64,000 bases of DNA from Kribbibacterium absianum (GCF_030067705.1 NZ_JASJEX010000002.1:372001-436000), one strand, 5' to 3'. Positions 7,434 to 46,062 are shown, counted from the first letter of the stretch. The notes: generated by a model not told the origin, from the letters alone. A program made the numbers and translations.

Positions 7434-7468
7434 AAACGCCGGCGCTCTTGTTCGCGAGCGTGTTTGCG

Positions 7469-7632
7469 GGGAAACGATTGCCCACAAACAGATGAAAGCA
7501 GTTGCGGGGAAATAGGGCTCATTGCCCGCCCTACACAGGCGCCACCTGCGGTTTTGCTCGCGAAAGGGATTGCGGGGAAACGTTTCTCCGCAAGGAGGGC
7601 TCGTAGTTTGCGGGGAAACGCTTCTCCGCAAG
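7469..7632. repeat. Family C intergenic repeats between secA and prfB
   Basis: Four occurrences of TTGCGGGGAAA lie here. Two are extended into near-palindromes of 24 bases (7570-7593 and 7608-7631), in which TTGCGGGGAAAC faces (G)(T/C)TTCTCCGCAA. The same motif recurs at about 36828-36962. No gene is visible in the gap between secA and prfB. Confidence 0.75.
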
Positions 7633-18670: not shown

Positions 18671-18780
18671 GGACGCTTGGGAGAGAGCCATTTGTCCACG
18701 CTCCGGCCGGCGACAGCGTGGACAAATGGCTTTGACCGAAGCGTCCAACCGTGGACAAACGGCTTTGACCGAAGCGTCCA
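18671..18780. repeat. Family B repeat cluster upstream of dxs and ftsE
   Basis: One forward unit (18671-18700, starting GGACGCTTGGGAGAGAGCC) and two inverted units (18717-18746 and 18750-18779, ending ACCGAAGCGTCC) can form a long hairpin. The remainder of the 351-base gap between dxs and ftsE must contain both promoters, which I could not place. Confidence 0.85.
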
Positions 18781-23198: not shown

Positions 23199-23324
23199 GG
23201 ACGCTTCGGAGAGAGCCATTTGTCCACGCCTGGACGCTTGAGAGAGAGCCATTTGTCCACGGTTGGACAGTTGGCTCTGAGCGAAGCGTCCAACCGTGGA
23301 CGATCGGCTTTGACGCAAGCGTCC
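23199..23324. repeat. Family B repeat cluster after rnr
   Basis: Two forward units (23199-23228, 23232-23261) are followed by two inverted units (about 23264-23292 and 23294-23324). The cluster starts ten bases after the rnr stop and can fold into a long hairpin. Confidence 0.85.
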
Positions 23325-25984: not shown

Positions 25985-26280
25985 TCCCTATGATTTCTAT
26001 AGATGGGTCGACATACGAGTTGCGTTTGTATTCGCCAGCGAAACCGCCGGATTGGCTTGCGATTGCAAACGCAACTGCCCGATGGGCTTGTATTCGCAAG
26101 CTAAACGGCCGGATGGGTTTGCAATCACAACGCAAACTTCCGCAGCATCCACGCCGCCGACAAAACCGCAGGTAAACGCATCACAACCGCAACCAACTTG
26201 CGTTTGCATTGCAATCACAACCCAATCGGCGCCCGTTCCGCGCTTTCCCATTGCGATCACAACCCAAACGCGTGCCCGCC
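25985..26280. repeat. Family D-related TTGC/GCAA repeat region
   Basis: Many short copies of TTGCGTTTG, TTGCGATTGC and TTGCAATCACAAC occur in both orientations, including a dyad-like 18-mer at 26057-26074. The units are less regular than at 38258-38640. The rest of the 494-base gap before yhbY shows no gene. Confidence 0.65.
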
Positions 26281-33401: not shown

Positions 33402-34469
33402 ATGAAGTTTGATGCGAAGAAGACCATCGCGGCGCTGGCGATGAGCGCGACGCTGTTCGCGATGCCGGTGAGCGCGCTGGCGGTGACGGTCGATAGCACG
33501 GGCAACCTGCTCACCAAGAGCTGGACCCAGATGCCCGCAGAGCTCCACAAGGTGACGAGCCAGGACTTCACGCTCACGTACACGGGCGTCACCGACACCG
33601 TCGGCACCATTGCCGGGTCCGTGACCTACAACGGGAACGCGCTCGCCGTGAACGGCACCGTCCCGGTGACGCTTGCAGCTGCCGCCGGCACGACGGCCCC
33701 TGCAGGCACCGTGTCGTTCGCGAGCGCGTTCGCCAACGTGGACTTCGCGACCCCGGGCGTCTACAGCTTCACGCTGACCGAGAACCCGACCACCAACAAG
33801 AACTACAGCTACAACACGGCGAACGCTTCCTACGTCGTGAAGGTGCAGGTCGTGTACGACGACCCTGTCGCCAAGACTGTGAAGGTCCAGGGCATCACGG
33901 TCTCCGACCCCTCCGACAACAAGCAGGACGAGAATGGCGGCACGTTCGTGAACACCGCCGTGGACAACGCGGTCCTCTCGCTCACCAAGAAGGTGGACGG
34001 CAACCAGGCCGACACCGCCAAGGAGTTCTCGTTCACGGTGACGCTGACCGGCCTCGAGCCCAACGCGACCTACAGCTACACCAATGGCGGCGAGACCACC
34101 ACGTTCACGGCTGACGCCAACGGGTCGGCCACCGTTTCTATTGACCTGCATCACGACGAGAACGTGACCATCAACAACCTGCCCGATGGCGCCACCTACA
34201 CCATCAAGGAGGGCTCCGTCGACATCACGGCGGACATGAAGGAGACCGAAGGCGCGGACGGCTACAAGGTCACGGCCACTGGCTTCGACGGTAACCTCGC
34301 CAACGGCGAGACCGACACCGTCACCGTGACCAACACCAAGACCGCGACCACGATCACCGGCCTCGCCGTCACCTTCCTGCCCTACATCGGCGGTCTCGCT
34401 GCTGCTGGTGCTGGCGTTGGCGCCCTCGTGATCTCCCGTCGCCACAAGAAGGACGCGGACAACTTCTAA
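33402..34469 (+). CDS. Major pilin subunit
   Basis: A 355-residue fimbrial backbone protein with a Sec signal (MKFDAKKTIAALAMSATLFA, ending ALA), two Ig-like pilin domains similar to the streptococcal Spy0128/FctA type (YSFTLTENPTTNKNYSYNTA contains the Glu typical of isopeptide formation; ATYTIKEGSVDITADMKETEG is the second), and a C-terminal anchor with the tail SRRHKKDADNF. The sorting motif before the membrane helix appears to be T-T-I-T-G, not LPxTG. An adjacent class B sortase probably polymerises it. It starts after AAGGAGGCCACG. Confidence 0.87.
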   Translation: MKFDAKKTIAALAMSATLFAMPVSALAVTVDSTGNLLTKSWTQMPAELHKVTSQDFTLTYTGVTDTVGTIAGSVTYNGNALAVNGTVPVTLAAAAGTTAPAGTVSFASAFANVDFATPGVYSFTLTENPTTNKNYSYNTANASYVVKVQVVYDDPVAKTVKVQGITVSDPSDNKQDENGGTFVNTAVDNAVLSLTKKVDGNQADTAKEFSFTVTLTGLEPNATYSYTNGGETTTFTADANGSATVSIDLHHDENVTINNLPDGATYTIKEGSVDITADMKETEGADGYKVTATGFDGNLANGETDTVTVTNTKTATTITGLAVTFLPYIGGLAAAGAGVGALVISRRHKKDADNF

Positions 34470-34484
34470 ACGAGGTTGCCGCAT

Positions 34485-35249
34485 GTGGTTCTGATGACTA
34501 GCACTACGGCCTATCGAGCAGCGCGCGGGTTCGACCGCGCGGTCAACGGCGCGATCGTCCTCGCGATCGCCTGCGCGCTGCTCTTCTCGGGGTACTCGCT
34601 GTGGGATTCCTGGCGCGTGCTCCATGCTCCGGACGAGGTCAACGCCCGGCTCATGGAGTACATGGGGCCGAACGGTCCCAGCTTTCGGGAGCTTCTGGCG
34701 CTCAATCCGGATGTGGTCGCCTGGCTGCGGCTGGACGGCACCCACATCGACTACCCCGTGGTGCAGGGCGAGGACGACTTTGAGTACCTCAACAAGGACG
34801 TTTTTGGGGAGTTCGCCCCCTCCGGGAGCATCTTCCTCGGCAAGGGCGCGGCCCGGGACTTCTCCGATCCCTACTCCGTGGTGATGGGGCACCACATGGC
34901 GGAGTCAAAGATGTTCGGGGACCTGGACCTGTACCGCGACGAGGGGTTCTTCCGGGCGAACACCACCGGCACGTTGTGGCTGCCCGACCGCACGCTGCAG
35001 CTGGAGACCGTGGCCCTGCTCTCCGCGGACGCGTACGACGGCGCTCTCTACAACCTGCCGGTGACGTCGGACGGCATGGCGCGCGTGGTCTCGCGCATCG
35101 AGGGCCTGAGCGTTCACTCGCGCGGGGGCGCCCTGCGGCCGACGGACCAGCTCATCGCGCTCTCCACCTGCGCGTCGGGGTCGGCCAACGAGAGGACCGT
35201 CCTTGTCTGCCGCGTGGTGGGCGAGACGGCTGCCAGCAATAACGAGTGA
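34485..35249 (+). CDS. Class B sortase (pilus polymerase)
   Basis: A transpeptidase anchored by an N-terminal helix (NGAIVLAIACALLFSGYSLW). The catalytic triad is visible: His in VVMGHHM, Cys in ALSTCASG and Arg in ERTVLVCR. VAWLRLDGTHIDYPVVQGED and the residues after it are typical of class B enzymes. In Streptococcus pyogenes FCT-3-type loci a class B sortase together with SipA assembles the pilus, which matches the gene set here. Initiation is ambiguous among TTG 34476, GTG 34485 and ATG 34494; GTG has GAGG at the best distance. Confidence 0.9.
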   Translation: MVLMTSTTAYRAARGFDRAVNGAIVLAIACALLFSGYSLWDSWRVLHAPDEVNARLMEYMGPNGPSFRELLALNPDVVAWLRLDGTHIDYPVVQGEDDFEYLNKDVFGEFAPSGSIFLGKGAARDFSDPYSVVMGHHMAESKMFGDLDLYRDEGFFRANTTGTLWLPDRTLQLETVALLSADAYDGALYNLPVTSDGMARVVSRIEGLSVHSRGGALRPTDQLIALSTCASGSANERTVLVCRVVGETAASNNE

Positions 35250-35259
35250 GGACACAGAC

Positions 35260-36348
35260 ATGACGGTTACACGCACTACACTCCCCGCCGCTGGGTTTGC
35301 GGCCTTGCTCCGGCCTCTCCGGAGGTGTCTGGTGGCGCTCGTCCTGGCAGCGTGCGCGTTGGTCGCGGTGCCAGGGCTCGCCCAGGCCGCGCCTTACAAC
35401 ACGACGGCCACCGTGCCCGTCACGGTGACGTACGAGAGCGACACGACGCCCGACGTGCGGTCGCCCGCATGCACCGTTGTGCTCACGCCCGAGGACGGGA
35501 GGCCCGGCGACGCGCAGACGCTCACGGTGACGCCGGCGCAGACCCAGGACTTCCGCGGCGAGGGCTCGGGCTCCTTCTCGGTGGAGCTGCCGGGGCTCGG
35601 GACCTATGAGTACACGCTGAAGCAGACCACGGCGGCCCAGAACGGCTGGACGCTGGACGCGGCCGTGTACGACGTGACGATTCAGGTGCTTCGCGACGAA
35701 GCCACCGACCAGCCCCGCGTCATCGTGCGCATCATGAAGGACGGGGCGAAGTTCGACGCGGCGGAGTTCGCCAATCGCTACGCGGCCGCGTGGCCTGAGG
35801 GTCGCACGCCCGCCGTCAAGGCTCACAAGGCCCTCGGCGTGAAGCGTGGCGGCGCGGTGACGGACGAGAAGGCGGACCTCGCAGCCGGCGCGTACACCTT
35901 CCAGTTGAAGGATGCCGCTGGCGCGGTGGTGGCCACCGCAACGAACGACGCCAGCGGCTTGGTCGCGTTCGCGCCGCTCGTCCACGACAAGACGGGCGTG
36001 TACCGCTACACGCTCTCCGAGGTCAAGGGCACAGACGCGAACACGGAGTACGACGAGCGGACCGTCGGGGTGGCGGTCACCGTGACCGACGACGGTGAAG
36101 GCGGCCTCGTGGGCACCGTGGCTTACGACGGTTCCGGGCAGCCGCCCACGTTCCAGAACTTCCTGCTGAAGGTGGGCGACCCCGGTGCTGTGGTGAGGCC
36201 GTCGGGTGGCACGTCGTTCCGGGGCTTCGGAGGCACTCCCACCACGGGCGACCCGCTGACGGACAGCTTCCTGTATCTGGCTCTGGGGGCGCTCGTGGCG
36301 CTCACGGCTGCTCTGGTCGTGCGCAAGGTGCGTGCGCAGGAGGCTTGA
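35260..36348 (+). CDS. Second pilin / FctA-like surface protein
   Basis: A 362-residue surface protein with a signal peptide (ALVLAACALVAVPGLAQAA), two FctA-type pilin domains (YEYTLKQTTAAQNGWTLDAA and YRYTLSEVKGTDANTEYDER contain the conserved Tyr-x-Tyr-x-(Leu)-x-(Glu/Gln) strand), a Gly-rich linker, TPTTG as the closest to a canonical sorting motif, and a membrane helix with the basic end RKVRAQEA. It is probably the accessory or basal subunit that is attached to the wall. The ATG at 35260 follows GTGAGGA. Confidence 0.85.
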   Translation: MTVTRTTLPAAGFAALLRPLRRCLVALVLAACALVAVPGLAQAAPYNTTATVPVTVTYESDTTPDVRSPACTVVLTPEDGRPGDAQTLTVTPAQTQDFRGEGSGSFSVELPGLGTYEYTLKQTTAAQNGWTLDAAVYDVTIQVLRDEATDQPRVIVRIMKDGAKFDAAEFANRYAAAWPEGRTPAVKAHKALGVKRGGAVTDEKADLAAGAYTFQLKDAAGAVVATATNDASGLVAFAPLVHDKTGVYRYTLSEVKGTDANTEYDERTVGVAVTVTDDGEGGLVGTVAYDGSGQPPTFQNFLLKVGDPGAVVRPSGGTSFRGFGGTPTTGDPLTDSFLYLALGALVALTAALVVRKVRAQEA

Positions 36349-36723: not shown

Positions 36724-36739
36724 GGCGAACCCGTCCCGC

Positions 36740-37075
36740 GGACGCTTCGGAGAGAGCCGTTTGTCCACGCTTGGACGCTCGGGAGAGAGCCGTTTGTCCG
36801 CGCTCCTCGCGCGGCCGGTTGCGGGGAAACGATTCCGCACAAGACAAGGGCGCCCGTTGCGGGGAAACGACGCCCGCGTGCCGCCCGTGCGCGCATGGCC
36901 CGGGAAGGCGCCCTTGTGGGGAAACGGTCCCCCGCAAAGGAGGGGAGCCCGTTGCGGGGAACCGCTGGACGCTTGGGAGAGAGCCGTTTGTCCACGCTCC
37001 AGCGGGCCGGAGCGTGGACAAATCGCTTTGACCGAAGCGTCCAACCCCGGACAAATCGCTTTGACCGAAGCGTCC
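36740..37075. repeat. Composite of family B and family C repeats
   Basis: Family B units occur forward at 36740-36769, about 36773-36802 and 36967-36996, and inverted at about 37013-37042 and 37047-37075. Between them (36828-36962) lie four family C-type TTG(C/T)GGGGAA blocks (the last one diverged). This fills most of the 459-base gap after the helix-turn-helix gene. No gene is seen there. Confidence 0.85.
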
Positions 37076-37182
37076 ACGCCGCTCGCGTTCTGGTGTTTCA
37101 CTTGTCGGGTCGCTCGGCCGTTCCTTGATGTGGGCACATTTATCGATGTGAAAACGCCCGACCTTCAAGGAGATGGCTCGTC

Positions 37183-37815: not shown

Positions 37816-38185
37816 GGGGGCGACTGGTTTCGACTGGATGGCCCTGAGGCAGGAAGCAGGCCGTGGTCTCCTCGCCACGTTAAACAGGGGTCCCGTCAAA
37901 TTGAATTGACGACAACGAATTCTCTGGGGCTTACGCCCTCGCTGCTTAGTCTTAACTAACCAGCGCGCTTGACGCGGGAGCACTCCCGACCCGCGCCGAG
38001 TGTCATCTGAGGGAGATGCGGATCTGGACGTCGTTGGTATGCCAGGTCCTAAGACCGAACCAACTCGGACGGAGTCGTTGGGCCACCGTACCCGCTCCGT
38101 CTAAAACCCGAATCGGTGGCTGAGCCTGGAGATGCCTGCCAGGGGGTTATGTAGGACCGGAGTTCGATTCTCCGCGCCTCCACCA
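37816..38185 (+). ncRNA. ssrA: Transfer-messenger RNA
   Basis: Rescues stalled ribosomes together with SmpB. The 5' end GGGGGCGACTGGTTTCGAC and the 3' end TTCGATTCTCCGCGCCTCC plus encoded ACCA form the tRNA-like domain, with GGGGGCG pairing CGCCTCC. The tag frame reads DDNEFSGAYALAA and ends with TAG at 37947-37949; the exact resume codon just before is not certain. Pseudoknot-rich sequence follows to 38140. The length of 370 bases is normal. The 3' end is a classic integration site for mobile DNA. Confidence 0.97.
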
Positions 38186-38257
38186 CCTGAGAACGGGGCG
38201 GACTGCTCGAGATGAGCGGTTCGCCCTTTTCTGTGGCTCGCGGAGCGCGGGCGGTGG

Positions 38258-38640
38258 TTGGGTTTGCAAATGCAACGCTGTCGCCGCCACAGGCGGCCGT
38301 TGGGTTTGCGATTGCAACGCCATCGCCGGCGCATGCCGGTTGCGCTTGCAAATGCAACGCTATCGTTGGCGCGTGGGGTACTTTGGCTTGCAAATGCAAC
38401 GGTATCGCCCGCGCATGCGGCCATTGGGTTTGCGAATACAACGCCATCGCCGGCGCATGCCAGTTGCGCTTGCAAATGCAACGTTATCGCCCTTCCGGAC
38501 GCCCGTTGCGCTTGTGAATGCAATACAAACCAAAGGTGGTTGCGATGCTGAATCGCCCACCTGCGACGATGCCGCATTTGATGCGCGCGCGGCGCTTTGA
38601 CTTGCGAATACAATGCTATCGCCGGCGCGCGGCCGCTCGT
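38258..38640. repeat. Family D tandem array (about 42-base units) after ssrA
   Basis: About seven degenerate units of 39-43 bases follow each other. Each has a core like TTGCGCTTGCAAATGCAACG, then a TATCGCC-like block and a variable GC-rich end. After the units, a 62-base block (38537-38598) contains a hairpin (AGGTGG, GCGAT / ATCGC, CCACCT; 38534-38562) that recurs at 41031-41092. This is not a CRISPR array: the spacers are too short and related. Confidence 0.8.
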
Positions 38641-38777
38641 CGCTGGCGCTCGCGAGCAACTCCTGCAAGGCGGACGTGCTCGTGGGCGTCGACTCCGCGG
38701 TCGGCGCAGAAGGCTCGGGCTGCGGAAAACGGTTCGCACAAATGAGCCCCGGCCCTGAGCGCCGCGTCCGCGCGCGA

Positions 38778-40487
38778 TTAGAAGTACCTGCGCAGGTGTG
38801 CCCGCAGCTCCGGGTCCACCACGTAGATGTGCGTGCCGTAGATGCCACGCGTCAGCAGCACGTAGTAGATGTTGCGGATGAACGCGTCGAGCTCCTCCTG
38901 CGTGGCCCCGTCCCTGCCCGTGGAGTCGTAATAGTGGACCCGGTCGCAGGCGATCGCGCCCGTCCTCGCGTCCAGCCGGGCATCCGGGGCGATGATCACA
39001 TAGGCGTAGCTCAGGTCATAGCCCTGGGTGGAATGAATGCACCCCACCTCGTGCGCGTAGAAGGGGTCCTCAAGGCCGAGCGCGACCCACGCGTCGTTGG
39101 TGCTGTTCCAGCGAAGGTCGATGTGGCCCAGCTCGAAGTCGTGGCCTTCAAAATGAAGGCCGGGCCGGGGGTTCTCGTCCGGACGAGTGACCCACGGCCA
39201 GCCAAATCCGGCCGCCATGCGTGTGAGGTCGTGGCGCTCCCAGGTGTCCTGGAACGAGTCGTAGAAGTCGTCGAAGTCATCGTGGAGCACCAGCTCATAG
39301 TCCCCGAAGTCGCGCGGCTCCGGGTCGCGCCCGTTCAGCACGTCCATGACATAGCGCACGTACTCCCTGCCGCCCTTCACGCGCATTTGGGTCGTGAGCG
39401 TGATGGGGTTCCTGGTTGCAAGCCCGAGCCGGTCGCTCATCTGCTCCGGCGTGATGCAATTGGGGCCGATGGCCTGCAGGGGGTCGTAGAAAAGGACGGC
39501 CAGCTTCGCCTGGCTCAGCGCCCAGTCCAGCTGCGTGGCGTCCGCGTCGAGCCCCAGAGCGTCGCAGGCGTTCCGATAGTTCTTCCTCTGCCGGCCGAGG
39601 TTCTTTCTCTGCTTGAGCTTGTGCGCCTCGTCCACCAGCAGCACGTCGATGCTCTTCACGTCCGCGGACACGAAGCCGTACCGGGGGTTCTTGAGGTCGA
39701 AGGGGCTGATGACGTCCTTCTTGCGCAGGCCGGCCACGGTGCCGAGCGAATCCCGCAGGGTCGTCCGCACGGAGGTGACGGGCTCGAGCAGCTTGACGTT
39801 GAGGTCGTGGTAGCGGGGGTCGTCCTTGAGCATCTTCATGAGATGGACCGCCAGGACGGTCTTTCCGGTGCCCGGTGTCCCCTCGATGACGATGGGGCGC
39901 TTCTCGGAGTCGTCCGCCTTGATGGCCTCCATGATCCGGCGAAGCGCGTCGTACTGGTCGAGCGTCAGGCTTTTGTAGGGGCTGTACTTGAATACGTCCG
40001 AGTCCTCGATGCGCGAGAGCGGGTTCTCGGCGATGCCCCTGTCGCGCAGGTCCTGCCAGAGCGCCTCGAACATCTCGCCGTACTCGGCCTTCGAGAAGTA
40101 GTTCGTGTCCTCGAGCCCGTTGTTCCGGTTGGTCACGCGGTAACGGCCGTCGGCGTGCAGGCAGCCGATGAGGCGGTGCTCGTAGTCAACGGCCGCCGAC
40201 GTGTTGAGCTCGTCGTTGAAGATGAAGGTGGCCTGGTCGAAGCGCCTCTTCCGCTTGCTCTTCGCGTGCTGGAGCATGCGCCGGTAGGCGTTCGTGGTCT
40301 GCCCCACGTAGGCGTCTCTGTCTCCGGTGAGGATGTAGACCACGGGCCAGTCGACGATCTTGTCCTCACCGATGGTTGCGACTTCAATGGCTTGAGGCGT
40401 GCCGGGACGGAAGGGCGACGTCTCGAGACGAAACGGCGCGCCCTGGGGCACCTGGGCGTGCGTCGCCGTGGGCACGGTGCGCCTCAT
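38778..40487 (-). CDS. GIY-YIG nuclease domain fused to DUF2075 ATPase/helicase
   Basis: A 569-residue fusion. Residues 48-125 form a GIY-YIG endonuclease domain (VVYIL at 49-53, AYVGQT at 59-64, Arg69/70, Glu103 in YEHRL, Asn120). Residues 195-569 are a DUF2075 superfamily-1-like ATPase with Walker A GTPGTGKT (203-210) and Walker B DVLLVDEAHK (281-290), plus a C-terminal HSTQGYDLSYAYVII segment like helicase motif V. The open frame runs far upstream, but the ATG at 40487 overlaps the MazG-like stop as ATGA and has GGAG before it. Such fusions occur in defence islands; the role here is inferred. Confidence 0.85.
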   Translation of the reverse strand: MRRTVPTATHAQVPQGAPFRLETSPFRPGTPQAIEVATIGEDKIVDWPVVYILTGDRDAYVGQTTNAYRRMLQHAKSKRKRRFDQATFIFNDELNTSAAVDYEHRLIGCLHADGRYRVTNRNNGLEDTNYFSKAEYGEMFEALWQDLRDRGIAENPLSRIEDSDVFKYSPYKSLTLDQYDALRRIMEAIKADDSEKRPIVIEGTPGTGKTVLAVHLMKMLKDDPRYHDLNVKLLEPVTSVRTTLRDSLGTVAGLRKKDVISPFDLKNPRYGFVSADVKSIDVLLVDEAHKLKQRKNLGRQRKNYRNACDALGLDADATQLDWALSQAKLAVLFYDPLQAIGPNCITPEQMSDRLGLATRNPITLTTQMRVKGGREYVRYVMDVLNGRDPEPRDFGDYELVLHDDFDDFYDSFQDTWERHDLTRMAAGFGWPWVTRPDENPRPGLHFEGHDFELGHIDLRWNSTNDAWVALGLEDPFYAHEVGCIHSTQGYDLSYAYVIIAPDARLDARTGAIACDRVHYYDSTGRDGATQEELDAFIRNIYYVLLTRGIYGTHIYVVDPELRAHLRRYF

Positions 40488-40834
40488 TCCGCGCTCCATT
40501 TCCGCGCGTTGCCCCGGGCCTTCTCGGTGGGGTAGCGGCGCCCGTTGCGGGCGAGCTTGTCGGCCATGATCGTCGGCGCGTCGACGCCGAGAGCGTCCGC
40601 GAGATAGACGCAGTAGAGCAGGACGTCCGCCAGCTCGTCGACCGTCTCGGCACGGCGGTCCTCGCGCTGCAGGTCCGCGCCCGACCACTGGAAGGTCTCG
40701 AGCAGCTCGCCGGCCTCGATGGCAATGGACGCCGCGAGGTCTTTCGGGTTGTGGAACTGCGCCCAGTCGCGCTCGTCGCGGAACCGGCGCGCGAGGGCGA
40801 GCGCCTCCGAGAAGCCCGTGTCCTGCTCCGGCAT
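40484..40834 (-). CDS. MazG-like nucleotide pyrophosphohydrolase
   Basis: A 116-residue all-alpha NTP pyrophosphatase. The metal-binding motif is IAIEAGELLETFQW (ExxE) and ETVDELADVLLYC (ExxD). This small single-domain type hydrolyses non-canonical or deoxy-NTPs. It lies upstream of the GIY-YIG/DUF2075 gene with a 4-base ATGA overlap, so both are made together. The start has a strong AAGGAGG. Cleaving nucleotides plus a nuclease-ATPase would fit an antiphage pair, but that is inference. Confidence 0.88.
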   Translation of the reverse strand: MPEQDTGFSEALALARRFRDERDWAQFHNPKDLAASIAIEAGELLETFQWSGADLQREDRRAETVDELADVLLYCVYLADALGVDAPTIMADKLARNGRRYPTEKARGNARKWSAE

Positions 40835-40907
40835 GCAGCCTCCTTGCTGGGGTTGTTGGGAAACAGTCTAACCAGGACCGCCGCGCGATGGTCCAGAGGC
40901 CCGCGCG

Positions 40908-41110
40908 TGTGGCAGTTGGGTTTGCGATTGCAACGCTACGCCTCTCGCGGGCGCCGGTTGGGTTTGCGATTGCAACGCTACGGCTCCCACGGGCGCCGGT
41001 TGGGTTTGCGAATACAACACAAGCCAACGCTGGTTGCGATGCTGAATCTCCCACCTGCGACGATGCCGCATTTGATGTGCGCACGGCGCTTTGGATTGCG
41101 AATGCAGCGC
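40908..41110. repeat. Family D array on the far side of the MazG/GIY-YIG cassette
   Basis: Three units with GTTGGGTTTGCGA(T/A)T(G/A)CAAC lie at 40915-41020, followed by a block at 41031-41092 that matches 38537-38598 with 3 mismatches in 62 bases in the same orientation. The rest of the 361-base gap before the TatD-like gene holds no gene. Confidence 0.8.
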
Positions 41111-41195
41111 AAACTCCGTCCCCGGCGGCCGCACGGCCCCTCCCGCCGGCGTTTGCTCCACAATGGCGAGGCACACGCCGACGAAAGGGGCCCGG

Positions 41196-42176
41196 ATGCC
41201 TGCTCTGCTCGACACGCTTGCGCAAGGCGAGCTGTTCCACACCAAGAAGGGGCGCCCGGTGGCGTGCCCGCGGGCGCTGGCTCCCATTGCGGACACCCAC
41301 GGGCACCTGACGGTGTTCCGGCAGCACGACCCGGCGCTCGCGATCGCCCGGGCGGCGCTGGCGGGCGTGCGGTTGATGGCCGTGCCGCTGGACCCGACGG
41401 AGGACGCGAAGGACCCGGCGGCGTCGGCGGAGCAGATGGACGCCTGGGTCCGAGAAGCCCGCGAGGCGCTGGCCGTCGCGGCGGACGCGGGCGTGGAGCC
41501 CCCGGCGTTCTCGGACGTGCCGCCGCTGGTGGACAACGTTTGGACGCTGGCCGGCGTTCACCCCTACGGAGCTGGGGATTTGTTGGCGGACCCGTCGCGC
41601 TGGGACGCGCTGCTCGCGTTCCTTGAGCAGCCGCGGTGCCTGGGGATCGGCGAGATCGGCCTGGACTATCACTGCGATGTGCCGCGGGAGGTCCAGATCG
41701 AGGCGTTCCGCCGGCAGCTGGCGCTGGCCGTGGAGCGCGACCTGCCCGTCGAGCTGCACCTGCGCGACGCCGACGACGACCCTGCGGCGCTCGCCCACGC
41801 GGATGCGCTGGCCGTGATGGACGAGACGGGGCTGCCCGCCGCCGGTGTGGACCTGCACTGCTTCACGAGCGGGCCGGCGGTGCTGCGCCCGTTCGCGGAG
41901 CGTGGCTGCTTCATCGCGTTCGGCGGGGCGATGACGTTCAAGAACAGCGAGGACATCCGCGACGCGATGCTCAGCTGCCCGGTGGGACAGCTGCTCTCCG
42001 AGACGGACTCGCCGTACCTGGCGCCCATGCCGCTGCGCGGCCAGGAATGCGAGCCGGCGATGGTGGCGCTCACCGTGGCCGCGATGGAGGAGCTGCGGGC
42101 GGACGCAGGCCTGGACGAGCCGCGCGCCACAGCCGCCGCTCTCTGGGCCAACGCGAACCGCTTCCTCGGCCGATAA
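41196..42176 (+). CDS. TatD-family metal-dependent hydrolase
   Basis: A 326-residue amidohydrolase-fold protein of the TatD DNase family. Metal ligands are visible: HGH in IADTHGHLT, Glu in GIGEIGLDYH, His in VELHLRDAD, His in DLHCFTSG and Asp in SETDSPYLAPMP. It is longer than the usual 260 residues because of an N-terminal segment and an insertion between residues 65 and 110 (AEQMDAWVREAREAL). The ATG at 41196 follows GAAAGGGG and starts after the family D array; the upstream open frame is repeat sequence. Confidence 0.88.
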   Translation: MPALLDTLAQGELFHTKKGRPVACPRALAPIADTHGHLTVFRQHDPALAIARAALAGVRLMAVPLDPTEDAKDPAASAEQMDAWVREAREALAVAADAGVEPPAFSDVPPLVDNVWTLAGVHPYGAGDLLADPSRWDALLAFLEQPRCLGIGEIGLDYHCDVPREVQIEAFRRQLALAVERDLPVELHLRDADDDPAALAHADALAVMDETGLPAAGVDLHCFTSGPAVLRPFAERGCFIAFGGAMTFKNSEDIRDAMLSCPVGQLLSETDSPYLAPMPLRGQECEPAMVALTVAAMEELRADAGLDEPRATAAALWANANRFLGR

Positions 42177-45741: not shown

Positions 45742-46062
45742 GGTTCCCTTGCCGGGTCTGTGGTTGCGGGCGTCCCTCGGTGTCGCCGAGGCGCGCCCTA
45801 GTCCATGGCAGACGAGGCCCAAAGGATCCACGTAAGTCCGGTCGTGCGCGGCCGGGCGATCACGGCTCGTCCTAGAAGTAAGTCGCACCCCCCGCCCACC
45901 CACACAGCGGGGCGAAGGCGCCCCGCCGGGGGAGAGGGCCAAGAGTGGAGGCGCCGCGGCGCCGGAAGCGACGGCCCCCGTGCGCGAGTGTGGGGTCGAA
46001 GACCAGGTCAGCCGGCAGGGGGCCTGATGGGAGCCTGGCCCCGGCCGCGGGGCCTGCACAGC
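45742..46062 (+). ncRNA. Structured RNA candidate between comFC and lipoprotein/hpf genes (raiA-motif-like position)
   Basis: The gap between comFC and the next start is 434 bases and full of pairing. A bulged hairpin GGGCG...CCTCGG/CCGAGG...CGCCC lies at 45769-45799, GCGGGGCG/CGCCCCGC at 45907-45926, GGTCgaaGACC near 45998, and CTGTG (about 45759) can pair with CACAG near 46060, closing the whole. An extended -10 lies at its 5' edge. The raiA RNA motif is known between comFC and raiA/hpf in Firmicutes and Actinobacteria, and hpf lies at 47242. Assignment is by position and foldability, not by consensus match; the borders are approximate. Confidence 0.5.

Follow-up and report, generated by a model that had tools for sequence, protein, structure and literature searches.

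The 64,000-nucleotide stretch of Kribbibacterium absianum DNA that we analyzed (hereafter the window) carries on its minus strand a small MazG-like gene and, downstream of it, a longer gene in which a GIY-YIG nuclease domain is fused to a Schlafen group 3 (SLFN-g3, DUF2075) helicase domain (Table 1). Both reading frames begin with ATG and have intact stop codons, and the ATGA overlap described in the original prediction is present. The pair lies between the tmRNA gene ssrA and tatD, with an array of short direct repeats on either side. Elsewhere, the window includes a raiA RNA, a large structured RNA (45747-46020, plus strand; Rfam RF03072, 128 bits), as well as several consecutive genes for secreted or wall-anchored proteins that look like pilin subunits, interspersed with a sortase-like gene (33402-36348).

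Table 1 Features of the two-gene locus and its surroundings, in window coordinates
Feature	Position	Strand	Basis
tmRNA (ssrA)	37816-38185		Rfam
Left repeat array: 40-42 bp units, core TTGCRAWTRCAACG, six to seven units, plus shared 62-bp block	38245-38624	+	
GIY-YIG nuclease fused to Schlafen group 3 (DUF2075) SF1-like helicase/ATPase, 569 aa	38778-40487	-	Pfam and conserved motifs
SLFN-g3 helicase domain, residues 199-558 (Walker A K209, Walker B D286/E287, Q367/R369, R547)	38814-39893	-	PF09848
GIY-YIG domain, about residues 47-125 (Y51, Y60, G62, R70, E103, N120), boundary approximate	40113-40349	-	Pfam and invariant residues
ATGA stop/start overlap of the MazG-like gene and the fusion	40484-40487	-	Sequence; recurs in at least 10 related loci
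MazG-like all-alpha NTP pyrophosphohydrolase, 116 aa, DCTPP1/RS21-C6 type	40484-40834	-	Pfam PF12643 and PDB sequence matches
Right repeat array: same orientation and architecture, three units, between the mazG upstream region and tatD	40903-41118	+	
TatD	about 41199-42176		

Both proteins could be assigned to families with their key residues in place. Compared to Pfam, the 116-residue MazG-like protein scored 62.7 bits against PF12643 (E 3.9e-17, cut-off 27), and it carries the ExxE...ExxD metal site of the DCTPP1-type family. This site consists of E40, E43, E67, and D70, and its E..E/E..D pattern is kept in all 26 aligned partners. The best sequence matches in the PDB were a pyrophosphatase (4qgp, E 7.5e-21) and dCTP pyrophosphatase 1, or RS21-C6 (E about 6.6e-18). 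The profile score and the intact metal site thus bear out the view of this protein as a small NTP pyrophosphatase. Because its nearest characterized relatives prefer dCTP or modified dCTP (PMC7162842), these are also its predicted substrates.

The fusion protein matched PF09848 (SLFN-g3_helicase, formerly DUF2075) over residues 199-558 with 173 bits (E 1.4e-50, cut-off 24). Its Walker A, Walker B, and arginine-finger-like motifs are intact, with K209, D286, E287, and R547 present in 26 of 26 aligned homologues, and Q367 and R369 are likewise invariant across homologues. The profile match of the nuclease domain is marginal, since PF01541 (GIY-YIG) reached 21.5 bits over residues 49-95, slightly below its 22.6-bit cut-off. 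Two homologues exceed this cut-off, and Y51, Y60, R70, E103, and N120 are invariant in all 23 aligned sequences that have the domain, as is G62 among homologues of this kind. The SF1-like ATPase with intact Walker motifs is thus upheld, and the GIY-YIG nuclease to which it is joined is probable. Lys209 and Tyr51, which the original prediction had named for mutation, are the correct residues, K209 belonging to Walker A and Y51 to the GIY-YIG set. Both domain assignments were made from sequence, because an AlphaFold model of the fusion, built from a two-row alignment, had a pLDDT of 39 and was discarded as too poor. A sequence search of the PDB with the fusion returned no match, and Pfam gave no match to the Schlafen core RNase domain, so that the protein does not qualify as a Schlafen RNase.

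We then examined how far the two genes occur together, using a profile built from eight fusion homologues. Across 398 Coriobacteriia genomes, full-length homologues were found in 24, and two further members from an earlier sample brought the set to 26; a scan of genome contigs found one locus. A MazG-like gene is adjacent to 20 of these 26 fusions, mostly upstream, and the 4-nt overlap recurs in many of them, which suggests translational coupling. Approached from the other side, 46 of the 53 PF12643 genes in the same 398 genomes have an SLFN-g3 match no more than 1.5 kb away, 26 of them being upstream, 15 downstream in the same orientation, and 5 encoded on the other strand. A linkage that persists through such rearrangements argues for a functional connection between the two genes. 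Protein distances of the MazG-like enzyme and the fusion were correlated across 20 Coriobacteriia pairs (r 0.85, a value reached in 0 of 5000 permutations), which fits joint inheritance, with the reservation that shared vertical descent also raises r and is not removed by the permutation test. The MazG-like gene and the fusion form a conserved linked unit, and the co-occurrence anticipated in the original prediction extends well beyond this genome.

The linkage is not absolute. Six genomes whose fusion has no adjacent partner lack a PF12643 gene altogether, and in the remaining fusion genomes the adjacent PF12643 gene is the only one found (that of G208 being seen only with a narrower profile). 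At a further locus, in G370, the MazG-like partner is broken by TAG and TAA codons (L140, G370:C1:269916-270122), with the fusion still open. MazG is thus not always needed, and since it is lost or decayed in some genomes that have an intact fusion, we consider the nuclease-motor protein to be the core of the unit and MazG an aid to it. These cases also bear on another explanation, namely a toxin-antitoxin-like or abortive unit in which, after infection is sensed, the helicase-nuclease would damage host DNA or RNA, or the pyrophosphatase would drain dNTPs, the partner acting as a restraint. The likely coupling of a larger nuclease gene, at translation, to a small gene ahead of it would suit such a unit, as would the Abi_2 neighbor in G020, but gene order and strand vary, and a fusion that is kept where MazG is absent or broken indicates that MazG is not an obligate antitoxin. 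We therefore regard this explanation as improbable.

Some related loci depart from the common form in other ways. In three genomes (G029:C12:398789-399334, G210, and G294), SLFN-g3 genes are present as fragments interrupted by stop codons, which suggests that the module decays and is turned over. At L146, L147, and L156, the MazG-linked helicases have a different N terminus, whose first 250 residues stand in the place of GIY-YIG and have no Pfam match; this region is perhaps another nuclease.

With the fusion in 24 of 398 genomes, the pair is not the universal core gene set that would have spoken against an accessory role. In a maximum-likelihood tree of the fusion, members from different host families are intermingled, and well-supported branches force at least 4, 5, and 3 label changes for the three families tested. 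This mixing and the patchy presence indicate that the unit moves horizontally. Pairs with GIY-YIG fusions are also carried on Lactobacillaceae plasmids (L090 and L150). No relatives were confirmed in viral contigs. One record labeled as a Microcystis phage (L156, PP438423.1) encodes a Rep3 initiator, a TPR protein, and a MazG-SLFN-g3 pair. Because this initiator is of plasmid type and no clear structural phage gene was found in the part of the record examined, we treated this pair with caution; the record may be a plasmid or a phage-plasmid.

The repeats on either side of the pair offered a possible route for such movement. An alignment of the two arrays spans 238 bp with 78% identity (E 4e-49), and each includes one of two 62-base blocks (38537-38598 and 41031-41092) that differ at 3 of 62 positions, exactly as first described, in direct orientation. 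In pattern searches of the whole genome, the exact core of the units has eight matches, all in these two arrays and on one strand, compared to none for a reversed control, and searches elsewhere in the genome and in relatives returned short matches only. One explanation is accordingly that the pair belongs to a repeat-borne mobile island inserted at ssrA, as suggested by direct arrays that are found only here in the genome and by the position of the segment next to a tmRNA gene. However, comparable flanking direct repeats are absent from 25 of the 26 related loci, and the sole exception (L134, 346 bp at 95%) is without MazG, on which grounds we rejected the arrays as module boundaries. Insertion at ssrA was rejected as well: the 3' end of the tmRNA occurs once in the 64-kb window, the unit contains no integrase, and no ssrA-tatD junction is conserved. 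In single-contig relatives, ssrA and tatD are positioned, for instance, at 237 and 796 kb (G011), 24 and 477 kb (G016), and 181 and 1645 kb (G023), and genes hundreds of kb apart leave no ancestral junction that could hold an empty site; a check for empty junctions found none.

Several other short-repeat families within the same 64 kb likewise argue against a special role for the two arrays, and make them look like a habit of this genome. A diverged relative with TTGCRATCACAACC-like units has copies on both strands at 26057-26260. Units of about 33 bp (GGACAAACGGCTCTCTCCGAAGCGTCC), with palindromic ends (GGAC...GTCC), occur in both orientations at 36739-37076, 18683-18770, and 23211-23260. A family with a 38-bp period, TTGCGGGGAAACGNTTCCGCAA-like and with a loop of some 10 bases enclosed by inverted ends, forms short arrays at 36818-36965 and 7463-7620. 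A role of the flanking array as a structured RNA was unconvincing (folding z -1.8 for the plus strand and +0.4 for the minus strand). Although the flanking arrays exist as described, the most plausible view is that they are peculiar to this genome, and they probably lie outside the module itself. An island inserted at ssrA is thus very unlikely. The suggestion of a mobile or recombination-exchanged module is supported as to horizontal spread and unsupported as to mobility driven by repeats; the position beside tmRNA was correct, and integration there is unsupported.

Because the nearest neighbors of the pair in the window (ssrA, tatD, and an MFS transporter) are housekeeping rather than defense genes, a role in defense has to be argued from relatives. 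We compared 121 proteins encoded within three genes of the pair to 120 control proteins drawn from arbitrarily chosen regions of those genomes, using PADLOC at E<=1e-15. Neighbors matched 203 models and controls 6 (mostly the generic mad3), figures that do not count systems, since many PADLOC models are related helicases and inflate them. The association with defense genes is therefore above background in relatives, though not at the window's own locus. Neighbor types included DISARM-like, Hma, Abi_2, Cas9, Cas3, restriction-modification, and SauUSI-like genes. In G020 (L136, 296-15469), DrmA, DrmB, the MazG-like protein, the GIY-YIG-SLFN fusion, Abi_2, HmaA, and HmaB are all encoded on one strand, an unusual composite defense locus. 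Other related loci lie near Cas9-Cas1, near Cas3, an MkoA-like gene, and HKD with Snf2, or near a reverse transcriptase and N6_Mtase. Among plasmids, one pair adjoins the type I restriction-modification genes hsdS and hsdM, and one fusion homologue lacking MazG adjoins cas6 and cas10. In two unrelated records, an unannotated fecal scaffold (L089) and a Lactobacillus plantarum plasmid (L090), a gene for a PLD-helicase directly precedes the pair. The two PLD-helicases are 30% identical, and that of the scaffold bears DUF3427, which we take to be the SauUSI architecture; on the plasmid, the PLD-helicase gene is itself preceded by one for a (deoxy)nucleoside triphosphate pyrophosphohydrolase.

Such neighborhoods could also be mere sites of turnover, in which case the two genes might be a house-cleaning or repair pair, the pyrophosphatase clearing damaged or non-canonical dNTPs and the GIY-YIG-helicase repairing lesions by a UvrC-like logic. 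GIY-YIG domains are also found in repair nucleases, and in this window the pair does stand beside core genes. Moreover, DCTPP1- and MazG-type enzymes have been called house-cleaning enzymes (PMC7162842, PMC10014863). This explanation nevertheless sits poorly with a pair present in only 24 of 398 genomes, with a fusion tree that crosses host families, with plasmid-borne copies, and with many defense neighbors where control regions have few, and we consider it unlikely. Instead, the strong enrichment of defense genes beside relatives makes defense the best reading, and a defense role for the pair, argued in this way from relatives, is in our judgment probable.

Next, we compared the pair to described and catalogued systems. 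With bacterial Schlafens and SLFN defense genes, the fusion shares only the name of the Schlafen group 3 helicase domain (PF09848), as it has GIY-YIG at its N terminus and no match to the Schlafen RNase core. Defense enzymes that deplete dNTPs include dCTP deaminase and dGTPase. These resemble the pair in acting on dNTP pools, but have another fold and reaction and no nuclease-helicase partner. PADLOC candidate PDC-S14 matches the GIY-YIG part weakly (E 6.7e-10, residues 40-126), leaving out both the helicase domain and the MazG partner. SNIPE similarly shares a GIY-YIG nuclease domain, which in that system cleaves phage DNA, but is a single-gene membrane protein with DUF4041, a C-terminal nuclease, and no helicase domain (PMC13190303). 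A parallel in layout is the modification-dependent restriction enzyme SauUSI, in which a nuclease is likewise fused to a helicase with a nucleotide pyrophosphohydrolase next door, and a SauUSI-like gene adjoins the pair itself in L089 and L090. MutT homologues adjoining SauUSI homologues have been noted earlier (PMC7641849). SauUSI differs in its components, having a PLD nuclease, an SF2 helicase, DUF3427, and a Nudix (MutT) companion where the pair has GIY-YIG, an SF1-like motor, and an all-alpha MazG. The fusion hence does not belong to the SauUSI-like group, which combines a PLD nuclease, an SF2 helicase, and DUF3427, and the resemblance is limited to how the two might work.

For the pair as a whole, the sources searched gave no earlier description. 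In PADLOC (2023), the fusion gave partial domain matches and MazG none, and no catalogued system covers both proteins. Within the open-access papers searched, nothing was found joining MazG with DUF2075, or GIY-YIG and DUF2075 with defense, and the papers that name DUF2075 appear from their titles and abstracts not to concern the pair. MazG NTP pyrophosphohydrolase was predicted, not validated, as a defense domain by DefensePredictor, in a study that mentions neither a GIY-YIG nor a DUF2075 partner in its main text (PMC13092281). The statement that no two-gene system of exactly this kind had been described thus stands for PADLOC and for the open-access papers searched, and the pair is probably an undescribed anti-virus module, for which it is a candidate.

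Taken together, the conserved linkage of the two genes, their intact motifs, the patchy distribution, the family-crossing tree, and the defense-gene neighbors point towards a horizontally moving, two-gene accessory module directed against invaders, either phages or plasmids. We put the probability of this candidate function, as read from the sequences, at roughly 0.6. Under this reading, the SLFN-g3 motor of the fusion would translocate on invading nucleic acid, or remodel it, at the expense of ATP, the GIY-YIG nuclease would cut the invading DNA or RNA, and the co-translated DCTPP1-like pyrophosphatase would hydrolyze dCTP or 5-modified dCTP. What the last step might achieve can be proposed only tentatively. 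The pyrophosphatase could possibly starve phage DNA synthesis or rid it of modification. It might instead, with similar diffidence on our part, prevent modified dCTP from being built into the host's DNA, which a nuclease that senses modification would then leave alone, a possibility modeled on what MutT-type enzymes may do beside SauUSI-type restriction enzymes. By the same parallel, the combination of a nuclease-helicase with an adjacent nucleotide pyrophosphohydrolase may be a design that recurs.

More speculatively, the pair could represent a widespread undescribed defense module that ties restriction to the sanitation of nucleotides: a GIY-YIG-helicase would recognize DNA that is modified or foreign, and a co-translated dCTP-type pyrophosphatase would guard the pool of nucleotides. 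Such a module would have been taken up repeatedly beside unrelated defense systems (DISARM-like, Hma, CRISPR, and SauUSI-like), as is likewise the case for nuclease-protease pairs (PMC12799240). The pair ties a nucleotide-metabolism enzyme to a nuclease-motor protein within one mobile unit, found throughout the Coriobacteriia, a class of actinobacteria, and on Lactobacillaceae plasmids. If it is indeed a defense module, it would add a nucleotide-pool step to restriction-like immunity and would give a testable role to DUF2075/SLFN-g3 and PF12643, two families that are unexplained in many genomes.
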